NCBI GenBank assembly: GCA_902558105.1
Contig: CACECR010000005.1
Span: forward strand, 1 to 43,130
DNA length: 43,130 bases
From: an uncultured Candidatus Marinamargulisbacteria bacterium
Lineage (GTDB): Bacteria; Margulisbacteria; Marinamargulisbacteria; UBA817; CACECR01
Direction: 5' to 3'
How positions within the stretch are numbered: position 1 is the stretch's first letter; each line of letters opens with the position of its first letter. Shown here piece after piece: positions 1,630 to 43,130 of the stretch. The position numbers and the translations under genes were made by a program. The notes beneath the pieces were generated by a model. It was not told the origin of the DNA, ran no database searches, and worked only from the letters and a program-made list of their open reading frames with translations.

Positions 1630-2604
1630 CTACGACAGCGACGATAAGTAGTGTTCCGCATCCATAGCGGCCATGCAACCTGATCCGGCAGCTGTAATAG
1701 CTTGTCGATACAGTTTATCTTGAACATCACCGCATGCAAAAACACCTTCTAAATTAGTCTGAGTAGACCCAGGCTCTTTTACTACGATATATCCTGTATC
1801 ATCAGTTGTAATGGATTCGTTTAAAAAGTTTGTGTTAGGCTCATGTCCGATTCCATAAAATAAGCCTCGTATGTCTATTACAGACTCCGTATTTGTTTTG
1901 TTGTTTAAGACACGTAATTGCTTCAGAGTTGTATCTCCTATAGCTTCTTGAGCTTCAGTGTTCCAGCAGATCTCGATTTTTTCATTATTTTGGGTGCGCT
2001 CTTGCATTACTTTTGATGCACGAAGTTCGTCACGACGTACTAATAAACTCACCTTACTAGCATACTTACTTAAGAAGTTCGCTTCCTCACATGCGGTATC
2101 TCCACCCCCAATAACCACTAAGTGCTGGTCTCTAAACATAGGAAGTGCTCCATCACATACGGCACAAGCGGATATCCCTTTTTGCCAAAATGTTTTTTCG
2201 CCATCGATTCCTAAACGTTTTGCCGTTGCACCTGTGGCGATAATGATGGTTTTGGCTTTAAATTGTTTCTCTTTAATATGAACAGTATATGGGTGGCTAT
2301 CAAAATCAATTTTATCCACTGTTTTTGTAAATATTTTAGTTCCACAATTTTCAGATTGCTGTCTCATGTTCATCATGAGTTCTGGTCCAGAAATTCCGGT
2401 TGGGAAGCCTGGGAAATTCTCAACTTCAGTTGTTGTAGTTAATTGTCCTCCAGCCGCTACTCCAGCCGCCATTTCACCTTCAAACATAATAGGGTTTAAG
2501 CAGGCACGAGCTGTATAAATTGCCGCCGTGTGTCCCGCAGGTCCAGATCCGACAATAATTACATTGTGGATATCATTTTGTAGTTCATCTAATTTAGTCA
2601 TCAT
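1630..2604 (-). CDS. trxB: Thioredoxin-disulfide reductase
   Basis: TrxB is an FAD enzyme that passes electrons from NADPH to thioredoxin and so keeps cytoplasmic thiols reduced. The 324 residues match the low-molecular-weight family length. The FAD-binding GSGPAGHTAA lies at 19-28, the redox-active CAVC at 147-150, the NADPH-binding GGGDTACEEA near 166-175, and the C-terminal FAD motif GVFACGDVQD is present. Two ATG codons lie in tandem at the start; the second has the better distance from the AAGGAG site, so the protein may begin one residue later. It lies 11 nt downstream of the PBP1A gene, so the two are probably co-transcribed. Confidence 0.96.
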   Translation of the reverse strand: MMTKLDELQNDIHNVIIVGSGPAGHTAAIYTARACLNPIMFEGEMAAGVAAGGQLTTTTEVENFPGFPTGISGPELMMNMRQQSENCGTKIFTKTVDKIDFDSHPYTVHIKEKQFKAKTIIIATGATAKRLGIDGEKTFWQKGISACAVCDGALPMFRDQHLVVIGGGDTACEEANFLSKYASKVSLLVRRDELRASKVMQERTQNNEKIEICWNTEAQEAIGDTTLKQLRVLNNKTNTESVIDIRGLFYGIGHEPNTNFLNESITTDDTGYIVVKEPGSTQTNLEGVFACGDVQDKLYRQAITAAGSGCMAAMDAEHYLSSLS

Positions 2605-7579: not shown

Positions 7580-8218
7580 TTAGCTATAGTTGGATAGTAA
7601 TGTTTTTACTTCCTCTTGGAATCTTTCTACATCATTTGCGTGTGTAATTCCCAACTCAAGAATTCTATATGCTACATATTTATGTTTTTCTGTTCGTTGT
7701 ACATTATTAAGGGCTGTATATTGATCACCTAATTTACGCATAATGGTTTGGCTGGCTAATTGTAGATTATCTAGATCTGTACTGTCTGTTAATGTTTGTC
7801 CGGTTAGTGTACAGAAATTACTTTCTACGGCATCTTTGTCTAGTATGTGATAGAGATAATCACTTTCATTTACCAAACGGGTTTTAGAATCCGGGCTCGT
7901 TAAACTTAATATCTTTTCTCCAGCTGGGTTTTCCAAAATTACTCCAGATCTTTGTTGTTTCAATGGAGCACTATTATAATTTTCGGATAGGGTTTCAATA
8001 CTAAATTCTAGTTCTTTTTGGATAACGTCGCATGCAGTTCCTGTTGTATTTATTCCTATATTGCTCTTCATTGCTTTTATTTCCGCTTTCGTGCTGGTGC
8101 CACTGCTACACTTACCTGTTCCTTCAGTTGTGGTATTAGTTGCTTTGGGAGTATCGGGACATTTCCTATCAAATGGTTCTCTTGCAGTATTGATTGGGTT
8201 GCTTGTATCTAGTTTCAT
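7580..8218 (-). CDS. Unknown protein, paralogue of the 6058-6933 gene (duplication copy 2)
   Basis: A 212-residue protein that I do not recognise. It lacks a signal peptide and membrane segment. The N-terminus is polar and Thr/Ser/Lys-rich (TTTEGTGKCSSGTSTKAEIK), then ELEFSIETLSE, then a C-terminal helical region paralogous to the 291-aa neighbour (DAVESNFCTLTGQTL...FQEEVKTLLSNYS). The divergence is large compared with the flanking tyrS-derived DNA. Because the frame has stayed open while the adjacent tyrS copy has not, the gene was probably selected for. The start ATG has the same context (AGTTATTATG) and the same GATCGATAAC upstream element as its paralogue, though the -10-like TATAAT has become TTTAAT. 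Confidence 0.7.
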   Translation of the reverse strand: MKLDTSNPINTAREPFDRKCPDTPKATNTTTEGTGKCSSGTSTKAEIKAMKSNIGINTTGTACDVIQKELEFSIETLSENYNSAPLKQQRSGVILENPAGEKILSLTSPDSKTRLVNESDYLYHILDKDAVESNFCTLTGQTLTDSTDLDNLQLASQTIMRKLGDQYTALNNVQRTEKHKYVAYRILELGITHANDVERFQEEVKTLLSNYS

Positions 8219-8309
8219 AATAACTACTCTATTAATTTCTTACGTTATTAAAGTTATCGATCAATAAGCGGGGTGGATTGCATCTAAATTGCTTAATATT
8301 TAAGTTAAT

Positions 8310-9442: not shown

Positions 9443-11425
9443 ATGGCACAACAGCGTTATGACGCCGAACATATTAAGGTACTCGAAGGACTTGATGCCG
9501 TTCGTAAACGTCCTGGGATGTATATTGGGTCTACTGGGGTAAATGGATTAAACCATTTAATTTATGAGGTCGTTGATAATAGTATCGATGAGGCAATGGC
9601 TGGGTATTGTACCGATGTTTATGTGACTCTAGAGACAGATTCTATCGTTACTGTTTCGGATAACGGTCGTGGAATTCCGATTGATATTCATAAAGAAAAG
9701 AAAATACCAGCGGTAGAAGTGGTTATGACCACACTTCACGCGGGTGGTAAGTTTGAAGGAGAAGGATATAAAGTATCTGGGGGTCTTCATGGGGTTGGTG
9801 TGTCGGTTGTTAACGCACTAGCTGAGTGGTTAGAAGTTGAAGTTCATCGTGATGAGCAAAAATATTCACAATATTATAAACGAGGAAAGCCTAATAATTT
9901 AATCGGTGAAACAACTGATGCTAAAGGATCGGCGTCCGGTACGATGATTCGATTCAAACCGGATCATAAAATATTTGATACGCTTGTTTTTTCTGGCGAT
10001 GTGATTGCTCATCGATTAAAAGAACTCGCTTATTTAAACCGTGGGGTGACTATTCACTTTAAAGATTGTCGTGATGAAGAAGAAATTATCGATGAAACTT
10101 ATGTCTTTGAAGGTGGTATTGCGTCGTATGTAGAGGATATGAATCAAAATAAGGAAGCCTTATTTGAGCCCTCAATTTATATGAAGAAATCTCGTGATAA
10201 TTACGAAGTTGAAGCGGCGATTCAGTATGTGTCGGATCATTACGATGAACACGTTGCGTCGTTTGCTAATAATATTCGTACCAAAGAAGGTGGAACTCAT
10301 TTATCTGGTTTTAGAACAGCCTTAACCCGTGTGATGAATTCATTTGCTAAAAAATATGACCTTATTAAAAAAGGATCGGGTGGTCAATTAACGGGTGCGG
10401 ATCTTAGAGAAGGCTTAACGGCTGTGATCAGTGTGAAATTAGCCGAACCTCAATTTGAAGGACAAACGAAAACAAAATTAGGGAACTCTGAAGTAAAAGG
10501 AATTGTGGACTCCATGGTGGACGAAGCATTATCTGACTATGTTGAAACGAATCCTAAAGTTGGGCGTTTAATTATTGAGAAAGCATTAGCGGCACAACGT
10601 GTTCGTGATGCGGCTCGTAAAGCACAGGATTTAGCGAGACGTAAAACGAGTTTAGAAAGTACCACGTTACCTGGTAAGTTAGCCGATTGTTCGGAAAAAG
10701 ATCCGTCTCAATGTGAAATTTACATTGTTGAGGGGGATTCTGCGGGTGGATCAGCCAAGCAAGGGCGTGACCGAAACTTTCAGGCTATTTTACCATTAAG
10801 AGGTAAGGTATTGAACGTAGAAAAAGCGCGTTTAGATAAAATTTTAGCTAACGAAGAAATTCGTAATTTAATTACGGCGATTGGGCCAGAAACAGTGGCT
10901 GGTTTATCGAAATCTAAAATTAATACCGAGGAAGATAATGCTTCTGAAGAAGGAATGTCGACCGAAGAAGTTCTTCAAAAATTACGGTATCATAAAATTG
11001 TAATTATGACGGATGCTGACGTGGATGGTGCGCACATTCGAACGTTATTGTTAACACTATTTTTCCGTTATGCACGAGGTATTATCGAAGCTGGGGCACT
11101 TTATATTGCGCAGCCACCTTTATACTCTGTTAAAAAAGGATCTAAACTTACTTATGCGTATAATGATGATGATTTAGAGCGTGTCCTAGAAGAAGTAGGG
11201 CGTGAAAAAGCTAATATTCAACGCTATAAAGGGTTGGGAGAGATGAATCCGGATCAGCTATGGGATACTACGTTAAACCCAGAGCACCGTACGATGTTAC
11301 AAGTAAATATTGAAGATGGTGAAACAGCGGATGAAATTTTTACACTCTTGATGGGTAGTAAAGTTGAACCTCGTAAAGAGTTTATTGAAAAGTATGGTAA
11401 AACAGTCCGTTGGATTGATGTATAG
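9443..11425 (+). CDS. gyrB: DNA gyrase subunit B
   Basis: GyrB provides the ATPase and part of the DNA-cleavage core of gyrase, which introduces negative supercoils. At 660 residues it is the short form without the E. coli-type insertion. The GHKL ATPase has NSIDEA, DNGRGIP and GGKFEGEGYKVSGGLHGVG. The transducer domain carries the QTKTKLGN lysine motif. The TOPRIM domain has EGDSAGGSAKQGRDR, PLRGKVLNVEKA and DADVDGAHIRTLL, and the tail has QRYKGLGEMNP. The ATG has a strong GGAGAAGG site. It is followed 9 nt later by gyrA, forming a two-gene operon. Confidence 0.98.
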   Translation: MAQQRYDAEHIKVLEGLDAVRKRPGMYIGSTGVNGLNHLIYEVVDNSIDEAMAGYCTDVYVTLETDSIVTVSDNGRGIPIDIHKEKKIPAVEVVMTTLHAGGKFEGEGYKVSGGLHGVGVSVVNALAEWLEVEVHRDEQKYSQYYKRGKPNNLIGETTDAKGSASGTMIRFKPDHKIFDTLVFSGDVIAHRLKELAYLNRGVTIHFKDCRDEEEIIDETYVFEGGIASYVEDMNQNKEALFEPSIYMKKSRDNYEVEAAIQYVSDHYDEHVASFANNIRTKEGGTHLSGFRTALTRVMNSFAKKYDLIKKGSGGQLTGADLREGLTAVISVKLAEPQFEGQTKTKLGNSEVKGIVDSMVDEALSDYVETNPKVGRLIIEKALAAQRVRDAARKAQDLARRKTSLESTTLPGKLADCSEKDPSQCEIYIVEGDSAGGSAKQGRDRNFQAILPLRGKVLNVEKARLDKILANEEIRNLITAIGPETVAGLSKSKINTEEDNASEEGMSTEEVLQKLRYHKIVIMTDADVDGAHIRTLLLTLFFRYARGIIEAGALYIAQPPLYSVKKGSKLTYAYNDDDLERVLEEVGREKANIQRYKGLGEMNPDQLWDTTLNPEHRTMLQVNIEDGETADEIFTLLMGSKVEPRKEFIEKYGKTVRWIDV

Positions 11426-14034: not shown

Positions 14035-15558
14035 TTATAAAAACAAACGATAAGCTGGATTATGAGTCTCATCAATGTATCTAAAATTTAATGTATCTAA
14101 GAAACATTCGAGTGAGACGAGATCTTCTTCTTTGATGTCAAATCCGGCAAGAACTCTACCGTAGTCGGTGCCATGATTTCGGTAGTGGAATAACGTGATA
14201 TTCCAGTCTCCAGGCATCTTTGTTAGAAATTCTTTTAGAGCTCCAGGCCTTTCTGGGAATTGAAATCGGTAAATACATTCATTTTTTATCGTTTTGTTTC
14301 GTCCACCTACCATGTGACGGATATGCACTTTTGCCATTTCGTTTTCAGTTAAATCGATGGTGTTATATCCATTGTCTTTTAATAGTTTATAGATTTCATG
14401 CCGTTCTGAATGACCATTTTTAAGCTCAATTCCAACAAAAATTTCGGCTCTGTTATCGCTATTATATCGGTAATTAAATTCTGTGATGGCACGGTTCCCG
14501 ATGGTGTTAATAAATCGTTTAAAACTTCCCGCTTTTTCCGGAATTTCTACAGCATAAATGGCTTCTTTTCCTTCACCAATTTCAGCTCTTTCTGACACAT
14601 GTCGTAAGCGATCAAAGTTAATATTGGCTCCACAGTTTAGGGTCACTAATGTTTGATTTTTGTCTGTTGTTGCTTCGCAATATTTTTTAAGCCCTGCAAG
14701 TCCTAAGGCTCCAGCGGGTTCTGCGATTGCTCGGCAATTATCGTAAATATCTTTAATCGCTGCACAAATTTCATCTGTGCTAACTGTTAACATGGCATCT
14801 ACAACGTTTTGGCAGCACTCAAATGTTTCTTCACCTACTAACTTCACGGCTACGCCATCTGCAAATATACCGACTTCAGGTAATGCAATACGTCTACCTG
14901 CTTCAAGTGAGACACTCATGGATGCCGCATCTTCCGGTTCAACACCAATAATTTTAGTTTGTGGCCAAATTTCTTTGATGTAGGCACCAATACCTGCGAT
15001 TAGACCACCACCTCCTACCGCTATAAATATTGCATCAGGTGCTGTGTCTAATTGTTCTACTAGTTCTTTACCGATGGTTCCTTGTCCTGCAATGACAAAT
15101 GGATCATCATATGGGTGGATATAGATCTTGCCTTGCTCTTTTGCTAACGTTTTTGCATAATCAGAGGCTGTATCATAGCTATCTCCATGTAATATAATAG
15201 TGGCACCATGTTTTTTAACAGAATCAATTTTAATAGAAGGTGTGGTGTTTGGCATGACGATGGTCGCGTGTATTCCCATTTTTTTGGAAGCTACAGCCAC
15301 TCCTTGTGCATGATTTCCGGCCGATGCGGCAATTACTCCTTTGGATTGTTCGTCTACGCTAAGTTGTTTAATGCGATTGTAGGCGCCTCTTATTTTAAAT
15401 GAGTGAACGTCTTGTAAATCTTCACGTTTAATTAAAATATGTTGTGAGAAGAGTTGGGAGAGCCCTTCTAATTTAGACAGTGGGGTTTGATTTACTAAAT
15501 CATATATTTCTGCATTTTCAATTAATGTTTTATAGTTTGATTTCTTTTTGCTGTTCAT
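14035..15558 (-). CDS. ilvA: Threonine ammonia-lyase, biosynthetic (threonine deaminase)
   Basis: IlvA converts threonine to 2-oxobutanoate, the first committed step of isoleucine synthesis. The 507 residues comprise a PLP fold-type II catalytic domain (about 1-325) with the Schiff-base lysine in HSFKIRGAYNR (K55) and the phosphate-binding VGGGGLIAG. Two ACT-like regulatory domains follow (about 330-410 and 425-507), which in the family bind isoleucine and valine. The two ACT repeats mark the long biosynthetic form. There is no ribosome site; instead a near-consensus promoter ends 6 nt before the ATG, so the mRNA is likely leaderless. Confidence 0.96.
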   Translation of the reverse strand: MNSKKKSNYKTLIENAEIYDLVNQTPLSKLEGLSQLFSQHILIKREDLQDVHSFKIRGAYNRIKQLSVDEQSKGVIAASAGNHAQGVAVASKKMGIHATIVMPNTTPSIKIDSVKKHGATIILHGDSYDTASDYAKTLAKEQGKIYIHPYDDPFVIAGQGTIGKELVEQLDTAPDAIFIAVGGGGLIAGIGAYIKEIWPQTKIIGVEPEDAASMSVSLEAGRRIALPEVGIFADGVAVKLVGEETFECCQNVVDAMLTVSTDEICAAIKDIYDNCRAIAEPAGALGLAGLKKYCEATTDKNQTLVTLNCGANINFDRLRHVSERAEIGEGKEAIYAVEIPEKAGSFKRFINTIGNRAITEFNYRYNSDNRAEIFVGIELKNGHSERHEIYKLLKDNGYNTIDLTENEMAKVHIRHMVGGRNKTIKNECIYRFQFPERPGALKEFLTKMPGDWNITLFHYRNHGTDYGRVLAGFDIKEEDLVSLECFLDTLNFRYIDETHNPAYRLFL

Positions 15559-15564
15559 AACTGT

Positions 15565-15593
15565 ATTCTACGAGACCTTTCATTTTTCGTCAA
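15565..15593 (-). promoter_or_regulatory. ilvA promoter (probable leaderless start)
   Basis: Read on the minus strand: TTGACG, a 17-nt spacer, TAGAAT, then 6 nt to the ilvA ATG. Both boxes match the sigma-70 consensus at 5 of 6 positions. The expected transcription start falls at or next to the A of the ATG, and no Shine-Dalgarno sequence is present. Confidence 0.65.
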
Positions 15594-16944: not shown

Positions 16945-17446
16945 ATTTTAATAGTGAGTTCTCTAATTTATACTGAGCTTTTTTGATCTTATTTGATTTA
17001 CGCTCAATAGGATCTACTAAAATACTATAAGATCCCATCCAGTTTCCAAAAATAACATCGGTTAACACTTGGTCGCCAACGACAAGGGTTTTTTGATGGT
17101 CTAATTGATGCTTTTGATGGATGAAATCACCTGTAAATGTGAGTGGTTTTGCGGCAAAATAATAGCCAGACAGATTCATTTGCTTAGCTACTTTATAGAT
17201 GCGTATCCAACTAATATTATTGGAGACAATAAACACTTGGAAACCTACTTTTTTTGCGGTATTAATCCAATGTTCAATATCTAAATTACAGGTGGCTTCT
17301 GTTAATCCAACGACGGTATTATCAATATCTAGAAATATTTGTCTAAAGCCTTTAGTGTAGTAATCTTCTAGATTAATATCTAGTACCGAATCTACCATTA
17401 CATTTGGTGAGATTAGTGCTTTAATGAGTCGTTTATATTGTTTCAT
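16928..17446 (-). CDS. YqeG-family HAD phosphatase
   Basis: A 172-residue HAD-superfamily IIIA phosphatase of the YqeG type, related to phosphatidylglycerolphosphate phosphatases. Motif I is DIDNTVVG (nucleophile Asp), motif II IVSNN, then KPLTFTGDFI with the lysine, and motif III VVGDQVLTDVIFGNW. I chose the ATG that overlaps the hisG stop (TAATG) over the GTG two codons upstream. The substrate is not determined from sequence. The gene closes the run dinG-hisZ-hisG-yqeG, where translational coupling is likely. A lipid role would pair with pgsA elsewhere in the window, but that is inference. Confidence 0.85.
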   Translation of the reverse strand: MKQYKRLIKALISPNVMVDSVLDINLEDYYTKGFRQIFLDIDNTVVGLTEATCNLDIEHWINTAKKVGFQVFIVSNNISWIRIYKVAKQMNLSGYYFAAKPLTFTGDFIHQKHQLDHQKTLVVGDQVLTDVIFGNWMGSYSILVDPIERKSNKIKKAQYKLENSLLKWVGLK

Positions 17447-18078
17447 TAACACACCTTTAAAATATCTGAGTTGAATTGCATTATTTCATTATATTTAGTG
17501 TTAAATAAGGCTGGATTGGCTACCAATCTGGCGGTTGAACTAAAAATGGTATCAATAATATGTAAGCCATGAGCTTTTAATGTCGATCCAGTTACACTTA
17601 AATCACAGATGTAATCGCTTAGATTTGTAAATGGGGCTAATTCAATCGCACCATATAATTTAATAGGGTGAATATTCACACCTTTTTCATGAAAATATCG
17701 AATGCTAGAGTTCCAAAATTTGGTGGCTACTTTACTGTTTTGTTTAATTTCTTTTGGTGAAATTGGATCTGGTCCAGCCAGTACTAGACTACAAGCTCCA
17801 AATTTTAAGTCACTAATTTCAGTTAGTTGGGTATTTTGTTCAAGCAGTACATCTTTTCCTACTATTCCAAGATCTGCAGCTCCCTCTTCAACATAAGCGG
17901 GTACATCCCACGGTCGTACAAGTAATATTTTATATCTTCCGCTGGTATCGATGGTATATAGTTGTCTAGAGTGATCTAAATCAGTGTCGAATTCTACACC
18001 CATTTTACTAAATATTTTTTTAGCTTCGTCCCATAAATATCCTTTGGCAATGGCGATAGTTAATGGTGACTTATTCAT
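17446..18078 (-). CDS. hisG: ATP phosphoribosyltransferase, short form
   Basis: HisG catalyses the first step of histidine synthesis, joining PRPP to ATP. The 210 residues are the short HisG_S type, which lacks the C-terminal regulatory domain and needs HisZ as partner; hisZ is directly upstream. It begins TIAIAKGYLWDEA. The VRPWDVPAYVEEGAADLGIVG block and the ISDLSVTGSTLKAHGL block (normally the PRPP-binding E-x-G-x-T region; here VTGSTLKAHG) are present. The start codon overlaps the hisZ stop by 4 nt (ATGA) and the stop overlaps the next start by 1 nt. Confidence 0.95.
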   Translation of the reverse strand: MNKSPLTIAIAKGYLWDEAKKIFSKMGVEFDTDLDHSRQLYTIDTSGRYKILLVRPWDVPAYVEEGAADLGIVGKDVLLEQNTQLTEISDLKFGACSLVLAGPDPISPKEIKQNSKVATKFWNSSIRYFHEKGVNIHPIKLYGAIELAPFTNLSDYICDLSVTGSTLKAHGLHIIDTIFSSTARLVANPALFNTKYNEIMQFNSDILKVC

Positions 18079-18914
18079 GATAGAATCCCTTCAATAACGC
18101 TGTAGTTGAGTCCGAACCCAATGGCAGAGACTTGATGGTCAAAATTTTCGAGTAATTTGTCGTATCGGCCTCCATTACCAATTTTTTTACCTTCACCATT
18201 AACGCAACACTCAAAAAAGAATCCATTGTAATATTGAGTCGTTGTTTGAATACTTTCATTAAAGTAAAGGTCCGCTTTAATGGATTTTGAGTCAAGCTGG
18301 TTTCTCAGTTCGGAAAGAGGGTGGTCTGATGAAATATCTGATAATGGGCATCGTTTTGGGTACTGACTTAAGTTTGTGTAGTCTCTGGTTTTGAACGCGT
18401 TTTGAGTGGCTGTGTCATAAGAATTTAACGTTTTGGTATGATTGATTTCAATACTGATCTGATGAAGTCCTAATGAACTTAAACTTTCGGCGCAAGTTTG
18501 AATGAGTTCCGCTTCTGATTCAACTCCAGAATTTCCAATATTTTCGACTCCAAGCTGAAATCGCTCGGTTTCTCCAGTGACAGGATCTAAGCGGTAGACT
18601 GGGTCGGCATAACATAATTTTAAGTTTGATGGATTTTCCTTAATCCAAGTACTAGCTAATCGGCTAATTCCGATCGTATGATCGGGTCTTAAGGCAATAA
18701 TTTCTCCTTTTGAATTAATGAATTTAACGACTTTATCTTTCAGTGTTTCGCTACATAAGGGTTCAATTGTTGACCAATATTCAAACATTGGTGTAGCCAC
18801 TGCTTTATATCCTTTTTCTTCAAATAAATGCAGTGCTTTTTTAACATTATTACTTTTTTTTTGATAGTCGTTGGGAAGGTAATCTCTTACTCCTAATGGA
18901 ATAATGTGTTTCAT
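18075..18914 (-). CDS. hisZ: ATP phosphoribosyltransferase regulatory subunit
   Basis: HisZ is a catalytically inactive paralogue of histidyl-tRNA synthetase that activates HisG_S and gives histidine feedback. Class II synthetase motif 2 is visible in YADPVYRLDPVTGETERFQLGVENIG. The 279 residues are short, with no anticodon-binding domain, which separates it from HisS. The N-terminus PLGVRDYLPNDYQKK is typical. It sits between dinG and hisG with 4-nt ATGA overlaps on both sides, so its dosage is tied to hisG by translational coupling. Confidence 0.93.
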   Translation of the reverse strand: MKHIIPLGVRDYLPNDYQKKSNNVKKALHLFEEKGYKAVATPMFEYWSTIEPLCSETLKDKVVKFINSKGEIIALRPDHTIGISRLASTWIKENPSNLKLCYADPVYRLDPVTGETERFQLGVENIGNSGVESEAELIQTCAESLSSLGLHQISIEINHTKTLNSYDTATQNAFKTRDYTNLSQYPKRCPLSDISSDHPLSELRNQLDSKSIKADLYFNESIQTTTQYYNGFFFECCVNGEGKKIGNGGRYDKLLENFDHQVSAIGFGLNYSVIEGILS

Positions 18915-21667
18915 TTCAATTTCTCCGATAGCCTCTGGTTATGATACCAGCTAATACTCGATTTGAGCAACTCAGCAAAGGGTCCTTCTTCTATCGGATA
19001 TTGATCGATTTCTCGGATGAAGCATTTTTTATAACTTTTTTGTCCAAGTCTTGGATCTAATATAAAGATGATACCAGTATCATCTTTCGATCGAATAAGT
19101 CGTCCAATCCCTTGTTTAAGTTTTAAAATAGCTAATGGAAGTGAGTATTCCTTGAACCCATTTTGGTTATGGTTGTGATAATACGTCAATCTTGATGCGT
19201 GTAAAGGGTCTGTTGGCACATGGAAGGGTAATTTTGTAATGATGACACAACTTAATGCGGGTCCTTTAATATCCATTCCTTCCCAAAAACTATCTACACC
19301 TAATAAAATGCTGGGAAAATGACTGGATTTAAATTTTGTGATTAGGCTAGTCGTTTGGCTTTCAGGACTCTGTGCAATTACATTAATATAAGGATTACTG
19401 AGTTTCTTTTGAATATCTTTTTTACAGTCTAATAAGGTTTCAAATGATGTGAACAAGCCTAATGTTTTTCCCTTAAATTCGCGTGCACATTTGGCAATGT
19501 ATTGGCTAAGTGTTTTGGCTGTTATCGATGAGGCATCTTCTGACAGACACATGATTTTTGCTTGTTCTTGATGGTTGAAATCGGATTGTATTTGGATACT
19601 TTCTACGGGTTTATCTAGCTGATCTAATCCAACTAATGTTGAGAAGAATTCGAATGATTTATTAACACTTAAACTGGCGGAACAACAAATAGAACTTGGT
19701 AATTGAGAAAAGAGTTGTTCGGCTAACATTGTATTACAAAAAATAGGGGTACAATGAAACGATACATTTTGAGTATATTTTCGTTCATTAATTTCTATCC
19801 ATGCGACGCTATCGTTATCTGCAGAAAAGCAATAATTAATATCTCCCTTTAAAAAATCGAGTTGATCGACGTGATTATCAATTAAATAGTCTAGTGATTG
19901 TGAGTCTGCTATCTCGGCATTTTGGATGATTGATTTTAATTGTTTTAATAGTTCTCTTAAATTACTTAGTTCGTTAATTAACTCGTGATGAGCGGAGATT
20001 ACTTTTGGCCATTGCTGCGTACATAAACAATCTTCGTTAATTATGATTTGTGTTTTACGTCCAAACTTTTTATCGTCTGGGTTGTGTAAGTACAAGGTGC
20101 TTTCTTGCCACGATTTGAAGTATAGCTCGATACGACGAGCTGAGGCTTCTACTTTTTGAAGGATATCTTGTGCTTTTGATTGATCTGGATGTCCCATGGT
20201 GGTTTTAAGTATTGGATGATAAATCGCTTGTTTGTGGTGTGGATAATAGTTGTGGAGAGTATCATTTAACCGGTGCTTGTCGATTTTGATGGCTACGCTC
20301 GATGTCGCTACGCTATCTAAATTGTGAGCCTCGTCAATAATTACAGTGGACGGTTTAGGTAAGGTTTGATGCCCTCCAATGTAATCGTTTAAAAGAAGTG
20401 CGTGATTGGTGATGACGATATGTGATTCTTTGGCTTTATCTTTTGCGTATTTGTAGAAACTAAGTCGATCAGGGATATGTCTAAAATAGTTGGGTTTATA
20501 CTTTAGGGTTTGGACATATTTTTCATATAAGCTGGGGTGTAATTCATCAAGTTCCCCCGTTTTTGTGCTTAGAATCCAATTCATGATGGCGCACCATTCG
20601 ATAGGATTACTATAACTTGTTTGTAATGCTAATCGTAATTCTTTATCGACTTGAGATAAGTCGCAATAATTTTCTTTACCTTTTAATACTGTTACATTGA
20701 GTTGATTATTAAACAACTGGTTGATGGTTTGACTGTCTTTATTAAATAATTGATTTTGTAATAGTTTTGTTTTTGTAGAAATAATACTTGGTGCATTTTC
20801 TTCGATACTTTTTAATACGGCTGGAATTAAGTAAGCACATGTTTTTCCAGACCCTGTTTCAGCTTCTACAATACCATGTGCATTGTTTTTGCAAATGGAT
20901 TCGATGAATGTGGATAGCACTTCTTGTTGAGGTCTTTTTTCATATCCTTTTGTTTGTGATAGTTTTTTATAAAGTTCTTGAATGGAGGGTCGATGTATAG
21001 GCTTTGTAGGAAATTTAACGGAATGAATTGCTGAAATAATGTGGTCTTTATAGTTTTCGATGAGTATGTCTTTTTCTGTAGAGTACTGATTTAATGTCGC
21101 TTGTAATGTTGGGTAGTTACTTAACGTTCGTCTGATTAGGTTTAAAATTGGCGGCTTAAGTTTTGGAATTTGCTTTTGTAATTTTATATAGATTTCAGCT
21201 ACACCGATCGCATCATCTAACGCTCTATGGACTGTTTGCTGATATATTCCTAGTGCCTGACATAGCTGATCTTGTTTGTAACTTTTAACAGTTGGATTAA
21301 GTATTTTAGCTAGGTTTTGTGTATCCATAACATCATTAGTTAAGGCGTCAAACCCATAATCATTTAAGCTTTTATTGAGTTGATTTATGTCAAAACTGGC
21401 ATTGTGTGCAATGATTGTATGATTTTCGATAAAGTTTATGATGTCAGATGCAATTTCTCTGAAATTTGGAGCTAGTTTAATATCTTCTGGTGTTAAACCG
21501 GTAAGTTTAAATATGAATTGTGGTACCGATTGTTCGGGTTGTACACACCAAGTACGTGTATCTGTAATTCGGTTGTTTTCTACTTTTACGAGTCCTACTT
21601 CAACAATTTCATTTTCAGTGGGTGCTCGGCTCGTTGTTTCTAAATCTAGGCAAATTACTGTGTTCAT
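18911..21667 (-). CDS. dinG: DinG-family helicase with N-terminal DnaQ-like exonuclease
   Basis: This 918-residue protein joins a DEDDh 3'-5' exonuclease (about 1-165; DLETTSR, HNASFDINQL, HRALDDAIG) to an XPD/DinG-type superfamily 2 helicase (about 240-918). Walker A is EAETGSGKT, the DEAH box is IIDEAHNLD, and the final motif is QGIGRLIRS. It probably acts on DNA repair intermediates, as known for Gram-positive exo-DinG. Iron-sulfur DinG/XPD proteins have four cysteines between motifs I and II; here only NYC and EWC are seen and the last pair is replaced (RLSFYKYAKDKA), so an Fe-S cluster is unlikely. The exonuclease fusion is common outside Proteobacteria. It heads the dinG-hisZ-hisG-yqeG run, and no ribosome site precedes its ATG. 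Confidence 0.9.
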   Translation of the reverse strand: MNTVICLDLETTSRAPTENEIVEVGLVKVENNRITDTRTWCVQPEQSVPQFIFKLTGLTPEDIKLAPNFREIASDIINFIENHTIIAHNASFDINQLNKSLNDYGFDALTNDVMDTQNLAKILNPTVKSYKQDQLCQALGIYQQTVHRALDDAIGVAEIYIKLQKQIPKLKPPILNLIRRTLSNYPTLQATLNQYSTEKDILIENYKDHIISAIHSVKFPTKPIHRPSIQELYKKLSQTKGYEKRPQQEVLSTFIESICKNNAHGIVEAETGSGKTCAYLIPAVLKSIEENAPSIISTKTKLLQNQLFNKDSQTINQLFNNQLNVTVLKGKENYCDLSQVDKELRLALQTSYSNPIEWCAIMNWILSTKTGELDELHPSLYEKYVQTLKYKPNYFRHIPDRLSFYKYAKDKAKESHIVITNHALLLNDYIGGHQTLPKPSTVIIDEAHNLDSVATSSVAIKIDKHRLNDTLHNYYPHHKQAIYHPILKTTMGHPDQSKAQDILQKVEASARRIELYFKSWQESTLYLHNPDDKKFGRKTQIIINEDCLCTQQWPKVISAHHELINELSNLRELLKQLKSIIQNAEIADSQSLDYLIDNHVDQLDFLKGDINYCFSADNDSVAWIEINERKYTQNVSFHCTPIFCNTMLAEQLFSQLPSSICCSASLSVNKSFEFFSTLVGLDQLDKPVESIQIQSDFNHQEQAKIMCLSEDASSITAKTLSQYIAKCAREFKGKTLGLFTSFETLLDCKKDIQKKLSNPYINVIAQSPESQTTSLITKFKSSHFPSILLGVDSFWEGMDIKGPALSCVIITKLPFHVPTDPLHASRLTYYHNHNQNGFKEYSLPLAILKLKQGIGRLIRSKDDTGIIFILDPRLGQKSYKKCFIREIDQYPIEEGPFAELLKSSISWYHNQRLSEKLK

Positions 21668-21699
21668 ACAGTAAGTATCCCATATCTAGTCTCAAAACT

Positions 21700-22456: not shown

Positions 22457-22485
22457 TATTCATTACTAGTGACTTGTGATACACT
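22457..22485 (+). promoter_or_regulatory. hisH promoter (extended -10, near-leaderless)
   Basis: TATTCATT, 12 nt, TGATACACTT, 8 nt, ATG. The extended -10 is TGA-TACACT (TACACT 22480-22485). Exactly the same two blocks with the same spacings precede dnaB. There is no ribosome site between the -10 and the ATG. Confidence 0.55.
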
Positions 22486-22494
22486 TTGTGTGTT

Positions 22495-23112
22495 ATGAAA
22501 ATTGCAATATGTGACTATAATGTTGGAAACCTATCTAGTGTGGTTAATGTATGTCGTAATTTTGGGTATGAGCCAAATGTGACATCTGATTGGAAAACTA
22601 TGGATCAATCGGATTTGTTACTATTGCCTGGTCAAGGCGCTTACTCGACGGCTATGCAGTCATTAGATTCGACAGGTGCGGTTGATTTTATTAAGGACTA
22701 TGTTCGATCTAATAGACCTTTTGTAGGAATTTGTGTTGGGTTTCAACTTCTTTTTGAAGGATCTGAAGAAAATGGTTTTACGAAAGGGTTATCCTTATTC
22801 CCGGGTGTTTTTAAACGCTTTGAATCGGATACATTAAAAGTTCCTCACATGGGTTGGAATACGTTGTCTATTGAAAAGACCCATCACTTTTACTCCTTTG
22901 ACCAACAGTATGTATATTTTGTTCATTCCTATTATTTAGACAATACAGATTCAGATCTTATTTTATCAAGATCTTCGTATTCTCAAGACTTTGTTTCTGC
23001 AATTTCACGTCCCCAATTACTGGCCACACAATTTCATCCTGAAAAAAGTGGTGATGTTGGCTTATCTTTATTAGATTCATTTTTTGACTCTGTTTCTTAT
23101 AAGTTGCGTTGA
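22495..23112 (+). CDS. hisH: Imidazole glycerol phosphate synthase, glutamine amidotransferase subunit
   Basis: HisH releases ammonia from glutamine and feeds it to HisF, which makes imidazole-glycerol phosphate and AICAR in histidine synthesis. It is a class I amidotransferase: nucleophile Cys 80 in FVGICVGFQ, and the His/Glu pair at 181 and 183 in TQFHPEKSG. The N-terminus IAICDYNVGNLSSV is standard. I use the ATG at 22495; the track start three codons earlier lies inside the predicted -10. The product is 205 residues. hisF is not next door, so the pathway genes are scattered (hisZ-hisG lie 4-5 kb away on the other strand). Confidence 0.95.
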   Translation: MKIAICDYNVGNLSSVVNVCRNFGYEPNVTSDWKTMDQSDLLLLPGQGAYSTAMQSLDSTGAVDFIKDYVRSNRPFVGICVGFQLLFEGSEENGFTKGLSLFPGVFKRFESDTLKVPHMGWNTLSIEKTHHFYSFDQQYVYFVHSYYLDNTDSDLILSRSSYSQDFVSAISRPQLLATQFHPEKSGDVGLSLLDSFFDSVSYKLR

Positions 23113-23124
23113 GATTTTGAATCC

Positions 23125-23133
23125 TGATATGAT
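23125..23133 (+). promoter_or_regulatory. uvrA extended -10 box
   Basis: TGA-TATGAT ends 6 nt before the uvrA ATG and overlaps no ribosome site. The -35 is weak (TTGCGT at 18 nt). The position implies a leaderless mRNA, although read-through from hisH is also possible. Confidence 0.45.
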
Positions 23134-23139
23134 GGGCCT

Positions 23140-25959
23140 ATGAAAGAATCAATCATTGTTAAAGGTGCACGTGTTCATAATCTTAAAAATTTGGATGTCG
23201 AAATACCCAAAAATAAGCTAACGGTTATTACAGGACTTTCAGGCTCTGGTAAATCTTCATTAGCTTTCGATACTTTATATGCTGAAGGTCAACGTCGTTA
23301 CGTTGAGTCTTTGAGTGCATATGCTCGGCAATTTTTAGATCGTTTAGATAAGCCGGATGTTGATCAAATTACAGGTTTATCTCCAGCAATATCTATTGAC
23401 CAGAAAACACGTTCTCAAAATCCAAGATCAACAGTGGGCACAGTTACTGAGATTTTAGATTACTTACGATTGTTTTATTCCAGTATTGGAAAACCATTTT
23501 GTCCTAAATGTGGAGTGCCGGTTGAAGGTCAAAGTGCTCAGGAAATTAAGCAGCGGATTGTGGACTCTTTATCGGAAGGTGATGTGGTAATGATATATGC
23601 CCCACTTATTGTCGGAAAAAAGGGCCAGCATTTAGATACGTTTGCACAAATTAAACAAGATGGATTCTCTCGTGTTCGTGTGAATGGACAAATTTATAGA
23701 TTAGATGATGTGATTAAGCTAGAAAAAAATATAAAGCATGACATTGATATTGTTGTAGATCGCGTAACTTTAGATGCGTCAGATGATAGTCGGTTGTTTG
23801 AATCGATAGAAACCGCATTAGCTGTTGCTAAGGGGCATGTTGTGGTGACTTGCGAAGAGAAATTCTTCGATGAGCATTACTCTGAACAATTTGCTTGTGC
23901 GGATTGTTCGATTAGTTTTCCTGAAATTAATCCTCGTTTATTTTCGTTTAATTCACCTTATGGTGCGTGTGACAGTTGTAATGGATTAGGAAGTAGTTAC
24001 GACTTTGATCCTGAATTATTAATTGAAGATCGGGAGTTACCCGTTGAATTGGCTACGTCTAAAGCATTAAATCTAGATGATACGATTTATGGAAATAGAT
24101 TATTTTACGAAGGTGTCGATTTTGGCATAAAGCCGGGGCTGAAAGTGTCTCAATTATCCAAACGACAATTTCAGTTTTTTTTGTATGGTTCACGTGAATA
24201 TACAGGAGAGTTTAAGCGTAATAAGCGTGGACGATGGATGAATATCCCAAAATATTGGGAAGGTGTTGTTAATAACTTAAGACGACGCTATAAGCAAACA
24301 AGTTCGGAGCCGATGCGTTTTTTCTTTAGGCAGTTTATGTCTTCTTCGGCATGTCTTGATTGTTCCGGAGAGCGTTTGAATAACTTTGCCCGTAATGTAA
24401 AAGTGTTGGATTACTCGTTGTCTCAGCTATGTGATCAGCCTATCTCGGAGTTGGTGGTATTTTTTGAAGATTTACGTTTAGATCCACAAGATATGGAGAT
24501 TTCATCTTTACTGATTAAGGAGATTAGAAGTCGGTTGCAGTTTTTGAATAATGTTGGCTTAGGCTACTTAACGTTAAGTCGTCGAGCAAATACGTTGTCT
24601 GGTGGAGAGTCACAGCGCATACGTTTAGCGACTCAAATTGGATCTGGATTAACGGGTGTTTTATATGTACTGGATGAGCCTAGTATTGGGCTTCATCAAC
24701 GTGATAATGATCGCTTACTTGAAACGTTAAAGTCCTTACGTGATTTAGGAAATACTTTAGTTGTGGTTGAGCATGATGAAGATACGATACGATCGGCTGA
24801 CTATGTGTGTGATATTGGACCTCTGGCGGGTCGACATGGGGGTGAGCTTGGGTTTAGTGGAACGGTAAAGCAACTTTTGAAAGCATCAACGTTAACCGCA
24901 CAGTATTTACGACGTGAAAAAGAAATTATGGTTCCTACCAAGCGACGAACCTGTGCCAAATCTAAGTGGTTGAATTTGAAAGGTGCGTCACTTCATAATT
25001 TAAAATCTGTTAATTTTTCAATTCCAACGTCTTCTTTAGTGGTCGTTACGGGGGTTTCAGGTTCCGGAAAAAGTACACTTATTTCCACAATATTTCAGGG
25101 TGCGGTATCTCATGAGTTGTATAAAAAGCGTGTGAACAAAGATACTTATAAATCTATTACAGGATGTGATGAACTTGAACACTTGATTACGATTGACCAA
25201 AGTCCAATTGGACGTACTCCTCGATCTAATCCTGTTACTTATGTTGGTGTTTTTAATGCCATTCGAGAGTTATTTGCTAAGACTCGTGAAGCAAAAATTA
25301 GAGGTTATTCACCGGGTCGATTTAGTTTTAATGTTAAAGGTGGGCGGTGTGAATCATGTCAGGGAGATGGTGTTGCCAAGATAGAAATGCATTTTTTAGC
25401 GGATGTTTACGTAACCTGTGACGTATGTAAAGGGCGGCGCTTCAATGAACAGACTCTTGAAGTGACGTATAAAGGACAGTCTATTTACGATGTGTTAGAA
25501 ATGACTGTAAATCAAGCTCATGAATTATTCGAAGCTATTCCGGTTATTGCCAGAAAGTTACAAACTTTAATTGATGTGGGTCTGGGATATGTGAAATGTG
25601 GTCAGTCGGCGACAACGTTAAGTGGAGGAGAGGCTCAACGGATTAAATTGGCTAAGGAATTGAGCAAGCGTGGAGCTGGAAAAACACTATATGTATTAGA
25701 TGAGCCGACGACAGGGTTGCACTTTGAAGACATCCAGAATTTATTAGGTGTTTTGCAACGACTAGTGGATAAAGGAAATTCAATGGTAATTATTGAGCAT
25801 AATTTAGATGTAGTTAAGGTTGCAGATTATGTGGTTGATTTGGGTCCTGAGGGTGGAAATAAAGGTGGTCAAATTATTGCAAAAGGGACACCAGAACAAG
25901 TGTCAGAAGTGGCAGAGTCTATTACAGGTCAGTATTTACGCCCATTATTAACACGCTAA
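23140..25959 (+). CDS. uvrA: Excinuclease ABC subunit A
   Basis: UvrA finds bulky DNA lesions and loads UvrB in nucleotide excision repair. The 939 residues hold two ABC ATPase modules: Walker [13 protein letters not shown] (about 31-42) and [11 protein letters not shown]; signatures [12 protein letters not shown] and [15 protein letters not shown]. Zinc-binding cysteine pairs are seen at [25 protein letters not shown] and CESCQGDG...CDVCKGRRF. Length and domain order are normal. It lies 27 nt after hisH and 41 nt before dnaB. Confidence 0.98.
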
Positions 25960-25962
25960 GGC

Positions 25963-25991
25963 TATTCATTTTATCGTAAGTTTGATACACT
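25963..25991 (+). promoter_or_regulatory. dnaB promoter (extended -10, near-leaderless)
   Basis: TATTCATT, 12 nt, TGATACACTT, 8 nt, ATG, identical in blocks and spacing to the hisH promoter. The -10 core TACACT lies at 25986-25991, and no ribosome site is visible before the ATG. Confidence 0.55.
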
Positions 25992-26000
25992 TACTCTATT

Positions 26001-27359
26001 ATGCAAGAACGAATTCCGCCTCAAAATTTAGAAGCTGAACAATCTGTTTTAGGGTCTATGATGTTATCAAAGGATGCAATTGCCGTCGTAAGTGGTAGGT
26101 TGCAGCCGGAATATTTTTATAAAGATGCTCATATGCATTTGTACAATGCTATTATTCAATTAATGAAAAAAGGGGATCCTGTTGACTTAGTTACTGTTAC
26201 ATCTGAACTCAAGAAAATGGACTTACTGGAGCAAGCTGGTGGTAAAGCTTATATTGTGGATGTCCTTAATTCGGTACCTACGGCTACAAATGTTGATTAT
26301 TACGCTAATATTGTTCAGGAAAAAGCACTCCTTCGTCGACTTATTGATATCGGTGGAAATATTTTAGAAAATTCCTTTCAAGATCAGGACGATGTTGATC
26401 AGATTTTGGGTAATGCTCAACGTGATATTTTAGAAATTAGTAAAGAAAATATTCAAAATGATTTTGTAAAATTAGAGCATATCGTCTCAACGGTTTGGGA
26501 TGATATTAATGATACTTATGATAATGAAGATGGAATTTTAGGGGTATCCACTGGTTATTCAGATTTAGATGATATGACCTCTGGGTTTCAACCCGGAGAT
26601 TTGGTTATTTTAGCGGCACGACCGTCTATGGGTAAAACTGCATTAGCGTTAAATTTTGCCCTTAATGCGTCTATATTAAAAGAAGATTTAGTGGCTATAT
26701 TCAGTTGTGAGATGCCTAAAGAGCAGTTGGCGTTAAGAATGTTAGCCGCTGAAGCTAAAGTAGATTTGGGTCGGTTACGTACCGCTAATATTCATGAAAA
26801 TGAATATAGAGGTCTCTCTCAAGCATTAGGGCGTTTATCAGAAGCGCCCATGTATATTGATGATACGCCAAGTATTACGCCTTTGATGATGCGTGCGAAG
26901 TGTCGCCGGTTGCAAATGGAAGGTGAGTTAAGGTTAATCATTGTGGATTATTTGCAGCTCATGAGATCGGGTAAAAAGAGGGTTGAAAGTCGGTATCAAG
27001 AAGTATCAGATATTGTTCGTGAAGTTAAGGCTCTTGGTAAAGAGTTGAAAATACCAATTATTGCACTGTCCCAGCTGTCTCGTGATGTTGAGAAGCGAGG
27101 AGGCGATTTACCTAAATTATCTGATTTACGAGAATCTGGAGAGATTGAGCAGACGGCTGACTTAGTGCTGTTTATTCACCGTGATGACTATTATGATCAA
27201 GAGAAAACGGAAAAATATAGTCCCACAAAGATTGTTATTGCGAAACAACGTAATGGTCCTACTGGAGATATTAACTTAGTATTTAGACGAGATGTTGGTC
27301 GTTTTGAATCGGCTACTATGGTTCCTGAGGCGGTTGTGGATGCGACAGTATCTATGTAA
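26001..27359 (+). CDS. dnaB: Replicative DNA helicase
   Basis: DnaB is the hexameric helicase of the replication fork and recruits primase. The 452 residues begin IPPQNLEAEQSVLGSMMLS, the typical N-terminal domain. The RecA-like C-terminal domain has Walker A ARPSMGKTALAL, the switch glutamic acid in SCEMPKEQLALRM, Walker B LIIVDYLQLM and ALSQLSRDVEKR with the arginine-rich end. No intein is present. Its last 20 nt overlap the start of the lptD-like gene. Confidence 0.98.
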   Translation: MQERIPPQNLEAEQSVLGSMMLSKDAIAVVSGRLQPEYFYKDAHMHLYNAIIQLMKKGDPVDLVTVTSELKKMDLLEQAGGKAYIVDVLNSVPTATNVDYYANIVQEKALLRRLIDIGGNILENSFQDQDDVDQILGNAQRDILEISKENIQNDFVKLEHIVSTVWDDINDTYDNEDGILGVSTGYSDLDDMTSGFQPGDLVILAARPSMGKTALALNFALNASILKEDLVAIFSCEMPKEQLALRMLAAEAKVDLGRLRTANIHENEYRGLSQALGRLSEAPMYIDDTPSITPLMMRAKCRRLQMEGELRLIIVDYLQLMRSGKKRVESRYQEVSDIVREVKALGKELKIPIIALSQLSRDVEKRGGDLPKLSDLRESGEIEQTADLVLFIHRDDYYDQEKTEKYSPTKIVIAKQRNGPTGDINLVFRRDVGRFESATMVPEAVVDATVSM

Positions 27360-34244: not shown

Positions 34245-35744
34245 TTGTCAGAGACGCAATCAACAGTCGAACATCTTAACGAAGAAGAGGTTCGATTACA
34301 GAAACTTGAAACGTATCGTCAAGCGGGTGTCGAGCCGTTTGCATATTCATTTACACCCACTCATAAATTAGCGCAATTAACCACCGATTATGCCCATTTA
34401 GAATCGGGTGATCATGCCGAAGAAACGGTATGTGTCGCCGGTCGTATTGTGGCCAAGCGTGGGCATGGAAAAGCCACCTTTGGTAATATCATCGACCAAG
34501 ATGGTGCGGGGCAGTACTATGCCAATTTATCCACGTTAGAAGAAACCGATTTTAATTTATTATTGTCCTTAGATGTGGGCGATATTATCGGAATTACAGG
34601 ACACATGTTTGTCTCCAAACGAGGCGAGTTAACCTTGTTTATGGAGTCGTTTACTTTGCTAACGAAAGCGCTGCTTCCTCTACCTGAAAAGTATCATGGG
34701 CTTCAAGATAAAGAACTTCGTTACCGACAAAGGTATGTTGATCTGATTGCGAATCCGGATGTGCGTCGTTTGTTTCAAACACGATCGCAAGTGGTGCATG
34801 GAATCCGCGAGTTTTTACATCAAAAAGAGTTTATGGAAGTGGAGACCCCGGTTCTTCAAAGTATTTATGGGGGTGCGTCGGCGCGTCCGTTTAAAACCTT
34901 TCATAACGAGTTACAGCAAGACTTATATTTACGAATCGCGTTAGAACTTCATTTAAAACGATTGGTAGTGGGTGGTTTTGAGCGAGTTTTTGAGATTGGA
35001 CGTGTGTTTAGAAACGAAGGAATTTCTTGGAAACATAATCCGGAATATACGTTATTAGAATTGTATCAAGCGTATGCCGATTACAACGATATTATGGCAC
35101 TTACCGAAGAGTTAGTATCTAGTTTAGTCTTTAAACAATTTGGAACCTATGAGATCGAGTATCAAGGGGTGACACTTAACTTTGAAGCACCGTTTGATCG
35201 TATTACCATGGACGATGCCATGAAGCAGTATGCCGGTGTGTCGATGATGGATGATGTTCAAGTTCTAGCAGACAAAGCAAAATCTTTGGGGCTTGAAGTT
35301 CCAGAGGTTCTTCATAAAGGAGAGCTAATCAACTTAATTTATGATAAGTCGGTAGAGCCACAATTAATTCAGCCAACATTTATGATGGATTATCCTTGGG
35401 AGACGTCTCCTTTGGCCAAGCGTAAGCGCGATAACGACCAGTTAGTGGAGCGATTTGAACTGATTGTCAATAAAATGGAACTAGCGAATGCGTTCACCGA
35501 GTTGAATGATCCGATTGATCAGAACGCTCGATTTGAGGATCAGGTGAAGGCAAAAGAAGCTGGGTTTGATGAAACGCATGAGATGGATCACGATTTTGTA
35601 AACGCCTTAAAATATGGGATGCCTCCAACGGGTGGATTGGGTATTGGAATTGACCGACTCGTGATGCTTTTAACCGACGCTGCGTCGATTCGTGAAGTCA
35701 TTTGCTTCCCTCATATGAGAGATCAAAAAGGAGACGATTCATGA
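34245..35744 (+). CDS. lysS: Lysyl-tRNA synthetase (class II)
   Basis: LysS charges tRNA-Lys. The 499 residues have an N-terminal OB-fold anticodon domain (VAGRIVAKRGHGKATFGNI) and the class II catalytic core: motif 1 around FLHQKEFMEVETPVL, motif 2 FEIGRVFRNEGISWKHNPEYT, and motif 3 GLGIGIDRLVMLLT. The start is TTG with an AAAGGA site 6 nt upstream; there is no ATG in a usable position. It opens the coupled run lysS-secD-secF-sigma-membrane protein. Codon use is noticeably G/C-richer than in secF or uvrA. Confidence 0.97.
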   Translation: MSETQSTVEHLNEEEVRLQKLETYRQAGVEPFAYSFTPTHKLAQLTTDYAHLESGDHAEETVCVAGRIVAKRGHGKATFGNIIDQDGAGQYYANLSTLEETDFNLLLSLDVGDIIGITGHMFVSKRGELTLFMESFTLLTKALLPLPEKYHGLQDKELRYRQRYVDLIANPDVRRLFQTRSQVVHGIREFLHQKEFMEVETPVLQSIYGGASARPFKTFHNELQQDLYLRIALELHLKRLVVGGFERVFEIGRVFRNEGISWKHNPEYTLLELYQAYADYNDIMALTEELVSSLVFKQFGTYEIEYQGVTLNFEAPFDRITMDDAMKQYAGVSMMDDVQVLADKAKSLGLEVPEVLHKGELINLIYDKSVEPQLIQPTFMMDYPWETSPLAKRKRDNDQLVERFELIVNKMELANAFTELNDPIDQNARFEDQVKAKEAGFDETHEMDHDFVNALKYGMPPTGGLGIGIDRLVMLLTDAASIREVICFPHMRDQKGDDS

Positions 35745-40789: not shown

Positions 40790-41341
40790 TTACTCCGTTG
40801 TATACTCTAGTACAATGTGACGGTTAGATCCTTCACCTTCACTATGACTAGAAATACGTGGATTTTCTTTGAATTCAATATGAATGGCACGGCGCTCTGA
40901 AGCTGGCATTGGGTCTAATGCAATACTTGGACGTTTTTCGCTTAATTGGCGAGATTTAATAATCGCTGTTTCTTTTGCAGATTCTATACGTCTTTCAACA
41001 TATCCACCCACATCGATAAGTAGTTGAATAGGTGTATCAAACTTTTTGTAGATCATTGCTTTTAATAGTACTTGTAATGATTCGATCATATTTCCATTAC
41101 GGCCAATGATACGACCGGAGTCTGTTTCACTTTCAATATCAATATAAATGCAATATTCATCTTTGATATGTGCAGACACATCTGCATCTAAGCCGGATAA
41201 ATTAAGCATAGATTGTAGTTTTTCTTCGCAATAGTCTAGGGCCTCTTCAGGAATTTTTTTACGTTTGGGTCGGCTTGACTCATTTGTATTATTTGTATTG
41301 GTTTCAGAATCCTTGTTTTTAAAAATTTTAAAAATACTCAT
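40790..41341 (-). CDS. jag: Jag/KhpB-family RNA-binding protein (KH and R3H domains)
   Basis: The 183 residues have a charged N-terminus (FKNKDSETNTNNTNESSRPKRKK) in place of a full Jag_N domain, a KH domain (GRIIGRNGNMIESLQVLLKAM) and a C-terminal R3H domain (ERRAIHIEFKENPRISSHSEGEGSNRHIVLE). Members bind RNA and affect cell division and wall growth. Position between yidC and mnmE is the conserved context. The ATG overlaps the yidC stop by 1 nt (TAATG) and has an AAGGAGC site. Confidence 0.93.
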   Translation of the reverse strand: MSIFKIFKNKDSETNTNNTNESSRPKRKKIPEEALDYCEEKLQSMLNLSGLDADVSAHIKDEYCIYIDIESETDSGRIIGRNGNMIESLQVLLKAMIYKKFDTPIQLLIDVGGYVERRIESAKETAIIKSRQLSEKRPSIALDPMPASERRAIHIEFKENPRISSHSEGEGSNRHIVLEYTTE

Positions 41342-42747: not shown

Positions 42748-42753
42748 TATAAT
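42748..42753 (+). promoter_or_regulatory. pgsA -10 box (probable leaderless start)
   Basis: A perfect TATAAT ends 6 nt before the pgsA ATG, with no ribosome site between them. No good -35 is found at 16-18 nt. Confidence 0.45.
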
Positions 42754-42759
42754 GATATT

Positions 42760-43130
42760 ATGTCTATAAATCAATTACCTAATATCATTACTTTTTTGCG
42801 AATTCTTGGGGTAGTTGGAATCTTTTGGTTAACGCCATATTCTACTAACTTTTGGCTTCTAGTGGTTGCTGAACTTTACACTTTAGTTTGTATTACCGAC
42901 TTTTTGGATGGGTGGGTAGCTCGAAAATTTAAATGTGAAACGTATTTGGGTAAAGTTTTAGATCCGTTAGCGGATAAGATTTTAGTTCTTGTATTTTTAC
43001 CATTGTTAGAAATGCAAGTGATTACGGCGTTTCCTGTATTTATTATCTTAGCTAGAGAATTTTCGATTATGGCTTTACGTATTTTGGCAGCTAAAGAGGA
43101 AACAACCATTGTTGCCGCTCAATTTTCTGG
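42760..43130 (+). CDS. pgsA: CDP-diacylglycerol-glycerol-3-phosphate 3-phosphatidyltransferase, 5' part
   Basis: The gene runs off the window and is not in the track; about 123 codons are visible. PgsA makes phosphatidylglycerophosphate for PG synthesis in the inner membrane. The N-terminus INQLPNIITFLRILGVVGIF is typical. The CDP-alcohol phosphotransferase signature is complete: DFLDGWVARKF...GKVLDPLADK (D-x2-DG-x2-AR...G-x3-D-x3-D). It is divergent from rpmH. The minus-strand ORF in the track at 42876-43109 is its shadow. Confidence 0.93.
   Translation, partial: MSINQLPNIITFLRILGVVGIFWLTPYSTNFWLLVVAELYTLVCITDFLDGWVARKFKCETYLGKVLDPLADKILVLVFLPLLEMQVITAFPVFIILAREFSIMALRILAAKEETTIVAAQFS

Follow-up and report, generated by a model that had tools for sequence, protein, structure and literature searches.

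Start-proximal promoters point to leaderless or near-leaderless genes beside Shine-Dalgarno-led genes in Margulisbacteria

Actinobacteria, Deinococcus-Thermus and other groups are well documented as having leaderless genes with a -10 box next to the start codon (PMC3160421; PMC12340547), and predictions assign 21.6% of bacterial representatives to the leaderless type, a figure for the GeneMarkS-2 class that is relayed in PMC9581028. The TA-led genes described by Zheng et al. 2011 (PMC3160421) resemble the genes that we investigated: they have a TANNNT box some 10-12 nt before the start codon and no Shine-Dalgarno (SD) site, coexist with SD-led genes in one genome, and exceed the shuffled expectation. 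However, the 207 positive genomes of that study belong to Actinobacteria, Deinococcus-Thermus and others, with no Margulisbacteria named, and the consensus found here differs in favouring C at position 5 (TANACT) and in having a TG extension. Zheng et al. also report that many cyanobacterial genomes use neither an SD nor a leaderless signal (PMC3160421), and the phylum Margulisbacteria is sibling to the Cyanobacteria group (PMC6349859).

The "-10 region adjacent to ORF" of Deinococcus-Thermus (Zhong et al. 2025, PMC12340547) likewise places the -10 box a few bp from the ORF; there it drives leaderless mRNA; a -35 element is frequently missing, and those promoters that have one are stronger. 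The genome studied here has the same arrangement, with the -10 box a few bp from the ORF and an optional -35, and our Deinococcus gobiensis control behaves alike. The two systems differ in phylum and GC content, and the arrangement concerns about 30% of ORFs in Deinococcus-Thermus as against a predicted 7-24% here. The mycobacterial leaderless transcriptome (Shell et al. 2015, PMC4633059) also combines leaderless and SD-led initiation in one genome, but in high-GC Actinobacteria with mapped starts, whereas the present genomes are low-GC MAGs with predicted starts. In the literature searched, with subscription papers and preprints outside the search, we found no earlier report linking leaderless initiation and Margulisbacteria, and none joining it with both Cyanobacteria and Melainabacteria.

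The window, the whole 43,130-nucleotide stretch that was analysed, is one contig of a MAG from an uncultured Candidatus Marinamargulisbacteria bacterium (GCA_902558105.1; 952,545 bases, 57 contigs, 65% complete, GC 34.7%). Its ilvA is 55% identical to that of an uncultured Candidatus Marinamargulisbacteria record, the nearest named match from the phylum, but gammaproteobacterial records reach 54%, which makes ilvA a weak marker when taken singly; its dnaB is 60% identical to the dnaB in the genome of that record, a level matched by genomes flagged as belonging to the same order (59-62%). These identities place the MAG in Margulisiibacteriota, the class being assigned with moderate confidence. 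A sequence-only reading of the window had proposed a split between leaderless and SD-led genes, naming five genes with a -10 box 6 or 9 nt before the ATG and no ribosome site. Direct reading finds each of these boxes in place. The gene ilvA (threonine ammonia-lyase; 14035..15558, - strand; NF006674, TIGR01124) has a TTGACG -35 box (15588..15593, -; 5/6 match) separated by a spacer of exactly 17 from the -10 box TAGAAT (15565..15570, -), which ends 6 nt before the ATG (15558-15556). The -10 box of uvrA (23140..25959, +; TIGR00630), TATGAT with a TG extension (TGA-TATGAT; 23128..23133, +), also lies 6 nt before the ATG, and both ilvA and uvrA are predicted to be leaderless. The extended -10 box TGA-TACACT precedes both hisH (22495..23112, +; TIGR01855; box at 22480..22485, +, before the ATG at 22495) and dnaB (26001..27359, +; TIGR00665; box at 25986..25991, +) by 9 nt, and each gene is predicted to be leaderless or to have a leader of 1-3 nt. 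No -35 of uvrA, hisH or dnaB exceeds a 3/6 match, but the TG stands exactly at the extended -10 position. The fifth gene, cut by the window end (42760..43130, +), we take to be pgsA from the CDP-alcohol phosphatidyltransferase motif DG-x2-AR-x8-G-x3-D-x3-D in its translation; its box is a perfect TATAAT (42748..42753, +), 6 nt before the ATG at 42760, with no good -35 or any further promoter element.

A sixth case in the window, missing from that list, is a dinG-like gene encoding a DnaQ-DinG family exonuclease/helicase (18911..21667, -), with GATACT and a TG extension (TGG-GATACT; 21674..21679, -) 6 nt before the ATG; it is predicted to be leaderless (EM posterior 0.88). This DnaQ-DinG fusion lies upstream of a short hisG (210 aa) that adjoins a short hisZ-like gene (279 aa; both within 17446-18914, - strand). 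Elsewhere in the window, two unannotated genes (6058-6933 and 7580-8218) have similar upstream stretches on the - strand (6933-6980 and 8218-8265) that share GATCGATAACT..AATAACG..AAGAAA..GTTATTATG, a likeness that suggests duplicated regulatory DNA.

The proposed lack of ribosome sites is borne out by an EM mixture (described below), which assigns SD posteriors of 0.16, 0.19, 0 and 0 to ilvA, uvrA, hisH and dnaB; pgsA was left out of the scoring because its ORF is open at the window end. The genes put forward as the SD-led contrast score 0.99 for gyrB (9443..11425, +; AAGGA upstream), 0.99 for trxB (1630..2604, -; AAGGAG), 1.0 for jag (40790..41341, -; AAAAGGAG) and 0.88 for lysS (34245..35744, +; TTG start; GAAAGGA).

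One could assume that these boxes are chance matches, TANNNT occurring at any distance in AT-rich upstream DNA and five cases having been picked by the reader. Within the window this assumption is hard to dismiss: TATAAT-N6-ATG with one mismatch has 17 matches versus 27.9 expected, and loose TANNNT boxes at 6-9 nt are expected by chance in about 6 of the 36 window genes (estimated from the per-offset rate), so that five placements among 36 genes are barely above chance. Because the signal of the window is statistically weak, the case must rest on the whole genome.

We analysed 937,531 of the 952,545 bases of the MAG, in which 781 genes were called by coding potential only, with upstream signals unused. 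The sequence-only reading had suggested a genome-wide histogram of the distance from the -10 box to the start as a check; in it, TATAAT-like boxes peak at 6 and 7 nt (27 and 20 genes, versus about 9-10 per offset further upstream), and this peak is absent from genes less than 15 nt behind a same-strand gene. Scoring whole promoters (-35/-10) places 20 genes at 6 nt and 13 at 7 nt, compared with 1 at 4 nt and 0 at 5 nt; between 12 and 59 nt the average is 4.6 genes per offset. The unsupervised EM mixture, which was begun from random starts and given nothing but the 24 nt that precede the start codon, with no -35, recovers two motifs: AAGGAG, located 5-8 nt upstream, in 52% of genes, and TANA[A/C]T in 24%, with a peak at 6-8 nt. 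The split thus exists as a difference in DNA signals across the genome; an RNA start at the AUG and leader-free translation are predictions. The position-5 C of the second motif occurs in the forms TATACT, TACACT and TAAACT.

Genes with an EM posterior >0.7 form the high-confidence leaderless set (n=81), compared with 25.4 +/- 4.5 in 100 dinucleotide shuffles (maximum 37). About 25 of the 81 calls are therefore expected to be false, a single -10 match in AT-rich DNA being weak evidence, and the leaderless share probably lies between about 7% (the excess over shuffles, about 56 genes; a lower bound) and 24% (the mixture; an upper bound). Annotated members of this class are housekeeping genes (lipA, accC, purB, hisC, cysM, priA, dnaX and glutamate racemase). 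Internal Met codons give no peak at 6 nt, and in 300 kb of E. coli K-12 the box occurs at 6-9 nt in 0 of 237 genes. As a positive control, plasmid P1 of D. gobiensis has it in 12 of 150 genes versus 1.9 expected. The genome-wide peak at one spacing, the shuffles, the internal Met codons, the comparison with another phylum and the independent promoter elements described next all speak against chance, which is refuted as a genome-wide account and which we consider extremely improbable, although it may hold for single genes.

Further features mark the start-proximal boxes as promoters. The elements that identify them as such played no part in classifying the genes: TTGACA at >=4/6 positions is found with a spacer of exactly 17 in 23 of the 81 genes (1-9 at other spacers), at >=5/6 in 10 (0-2 at other spacers), and TTG at spacer 17 in 18 (0-5 elsewhere). 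A TG three bases upstream of the box, the extended -10, occurs in 25 of the 81 genes, about 30% of the class, versus 1-6 at other positions. A 17-nt spacer and an extended -10 characterise housekeeping sigma-70 promoters. With spacers of 16-18 allowed, 38 of the 81 genes have a -35 at >=4/6 and 43 do not. The idea that TG-extended promoters dispense with the -35 was rejected, there being no anticorrelation between the two elements (11:14 versus 27:29, P = 0.81).

A -10 box that ends 6-7 nt before the transcription start places +1 on the A of the ATG. We therefore propose that a sizeable class of genes, including ilvA, uvrA, hisH, dnaB and pgsA, is very probably leaderless or near-leaderless and stands beside a larger SD-led class. 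Promoters of the housekeeping-sigma (sigma-70/A) type would let RNA polymerase start on the AUG or no more than about 3 nt from it, and the resulting mRNA would have a leader of 0-3 nt, nothing or a mere stub. Such an mRNA could not carry an SD site, and its translation would have to begin at the 5'-terminal AUG; 70S or 30S initiation, as in other bacteria, would presumably serve. The larger class (AAGGAG at 5-8 nt) would consist chiefly of operon-internal genes and leadered transcripts. Alternatively, the mRNAs might not be leaderless in the strict sense and might begin with a very short leader, 1-5 nt long, that leaves no room for an SD site. The 9-nt spacing of hisH and dnaB, which allows a leader of 1-3 nt, agrees with this alternative, as does a spacing of 8-9 nt in other classes of the phylum; however, the peak of the present genome lies exactly at 6-7 nt and full promoters number just 0-1 at 4-5 nt, as would be expected if most genes had +1 on the A of the ATG, and we regard this alternative as rather unlikely.

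The leaderless signal is largely confined to the first genes of transcription units: 5 of the 81 leaderless-class genes follow a same-strand gene at a distance of less than 10 nt, versus 136 of the 364 SD genes in the comparison. The classes do not differ in start-codon preference (94% ATG in both). A further group, 111 of 766 genes, has neither an SD site nor a start-proximal -10 box; 43 of these overlap or sit less than 10 nt behind a same-strand gene, and translational coupling may account for many of them. The location of the promoters bears on a further explanation, in which the proximal -10 is genuine and yet the main transcript comes from a distal promoter, has a leader and is translated without an SD site (for example with the help of S1 on an A-rich leader). 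A short S1-like protein is indeed encoded in all 36 genomes of the phylum that we compared, and the 111 genes with neither signal leave room for SD-less leadered initiation. Individual genes may have further distal promoters. As a general account we consider this improbable, however, because it is mostly genes at the head of transcription units that have proximal promoters, and these promoters are conserved in place before orthologues, as a minor promoter would not need to be.

The gene starts were called computationally and without homologues, and it is conceivable that the true starts lie downstream of an SD site, in which case a leader would exist. Yet an ATG preceded by an SD site within the next 40 codons is found in only 1 of the 81 leaderless-class genes, versus 9 of 364 SD genes, the 290 genes with unambiguous starts retain the peak, and the starts of uvrA and dnaB align with the N-termini of relatives. 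We see hardly any chance that miscalled starts explain the pattern. The anti-SD sequence could be read in relatives: CCTCC is intact in the six with a readable 16S end, and the 16S rRNA gene is absent from this 65%-complete MAG.

The promoter placement extends to other Margulisbacteria. The samples from seven relatives (75-88 genes each) were too noisy for a free EM, and we therefore applied a fixed consensus; four of the seven have the peak (P between 2e-9 and 2e-3), and three (G017, G008 and G031) have no significant peak. Comparing full promoters with the ATG at 6-8 nt to those with the ATG at 14-16 nt yields 453:199 over 36 genomes of the phylum, the former being more frequent in 34 of the 36. 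The excess is missing in G031 and one other genome; G031 (3.3 Mb) has 18:19. The same pattern shows no enrichment in 30 AT-rich Firmicute genomes (726:736; Fisher P = 1.5e-17 against the phylum), and so the Margulisbacteria ratio stands. One Tissierellia genome with 14:7 had raised the possibility that the pattern is unspecific, which was dropped once the 30 related genomes had given 726:736. In four relatives from other classes (G032, G035, G029 and G031) the promoter-to-ATG spacing peaks at 8-9 nt (12 + 12 genes), reflecting either leaders of 1-3 nt or a different start-site preference. The spacing thus differs between lineages of the phylum (6-7 versus 8-9 nt), and the choice of start site may have drifted in step with the length of the leader.

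Individual genes retain the placement as well. Before uvrA and dnaB orthologues with 48-65% protein identity the -10 box recurs: TANANT stands 5-10 nt before uvrA in 13 of 26 relatives (control rate 0.05) and 7-9 nt before dnaB in 5 of 7 (control rate 0.07). For one-to-one orthologues, a leaderless call in one genome is predictive of a leaderless call in another (8/32 versus 14/155, P = 0.017), and dnaX is a leaderless-class example in two genomes. In several relatives (L094, L096, L102, L103, L109-L111 and L113) uvrA begins directly behind a hisH-like gene that ends in FHPEKSG, or overlaps its end. Several relatives in which uvrA follows straight after the hisH end lack such a box before uvrA, as expected if uvrA is translated inside an operon there. 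The hisH-uvrA neighbourhood is kept in the window and the coupling is not, the 27-nt gap between the two genes holding the uvrA promoter.

The finding extends a known mechanism to a new lineage, in which the pattern is conserved at the level of single genes. A deep-branching, uncultured phylum beside the Cyanobacteria thereby joins the bacteria with probable large-scale use of leaderless mRNA, and genes of core DNA replication and repair provide conserved examples. In Margulisbacteria MAGs, start codons may be misplaced by gene finders that look for SD sites. The pattern also bears on the question of leaderless initiation as an ancestral feature of bacteria. The combination of leaderless with SD-led initiation could be an old, phylum-wide trait of the Margulisiibacteriota that is conserved gene by gene (uvrA, dnaB, dnaX), and possibly the condition from which Cyanobacteria changed to initiation that shows neither a clear SD nor a leaderless signal; this we put forward tentatively, as an idea that deserves consideration even if we lean slightly against it.
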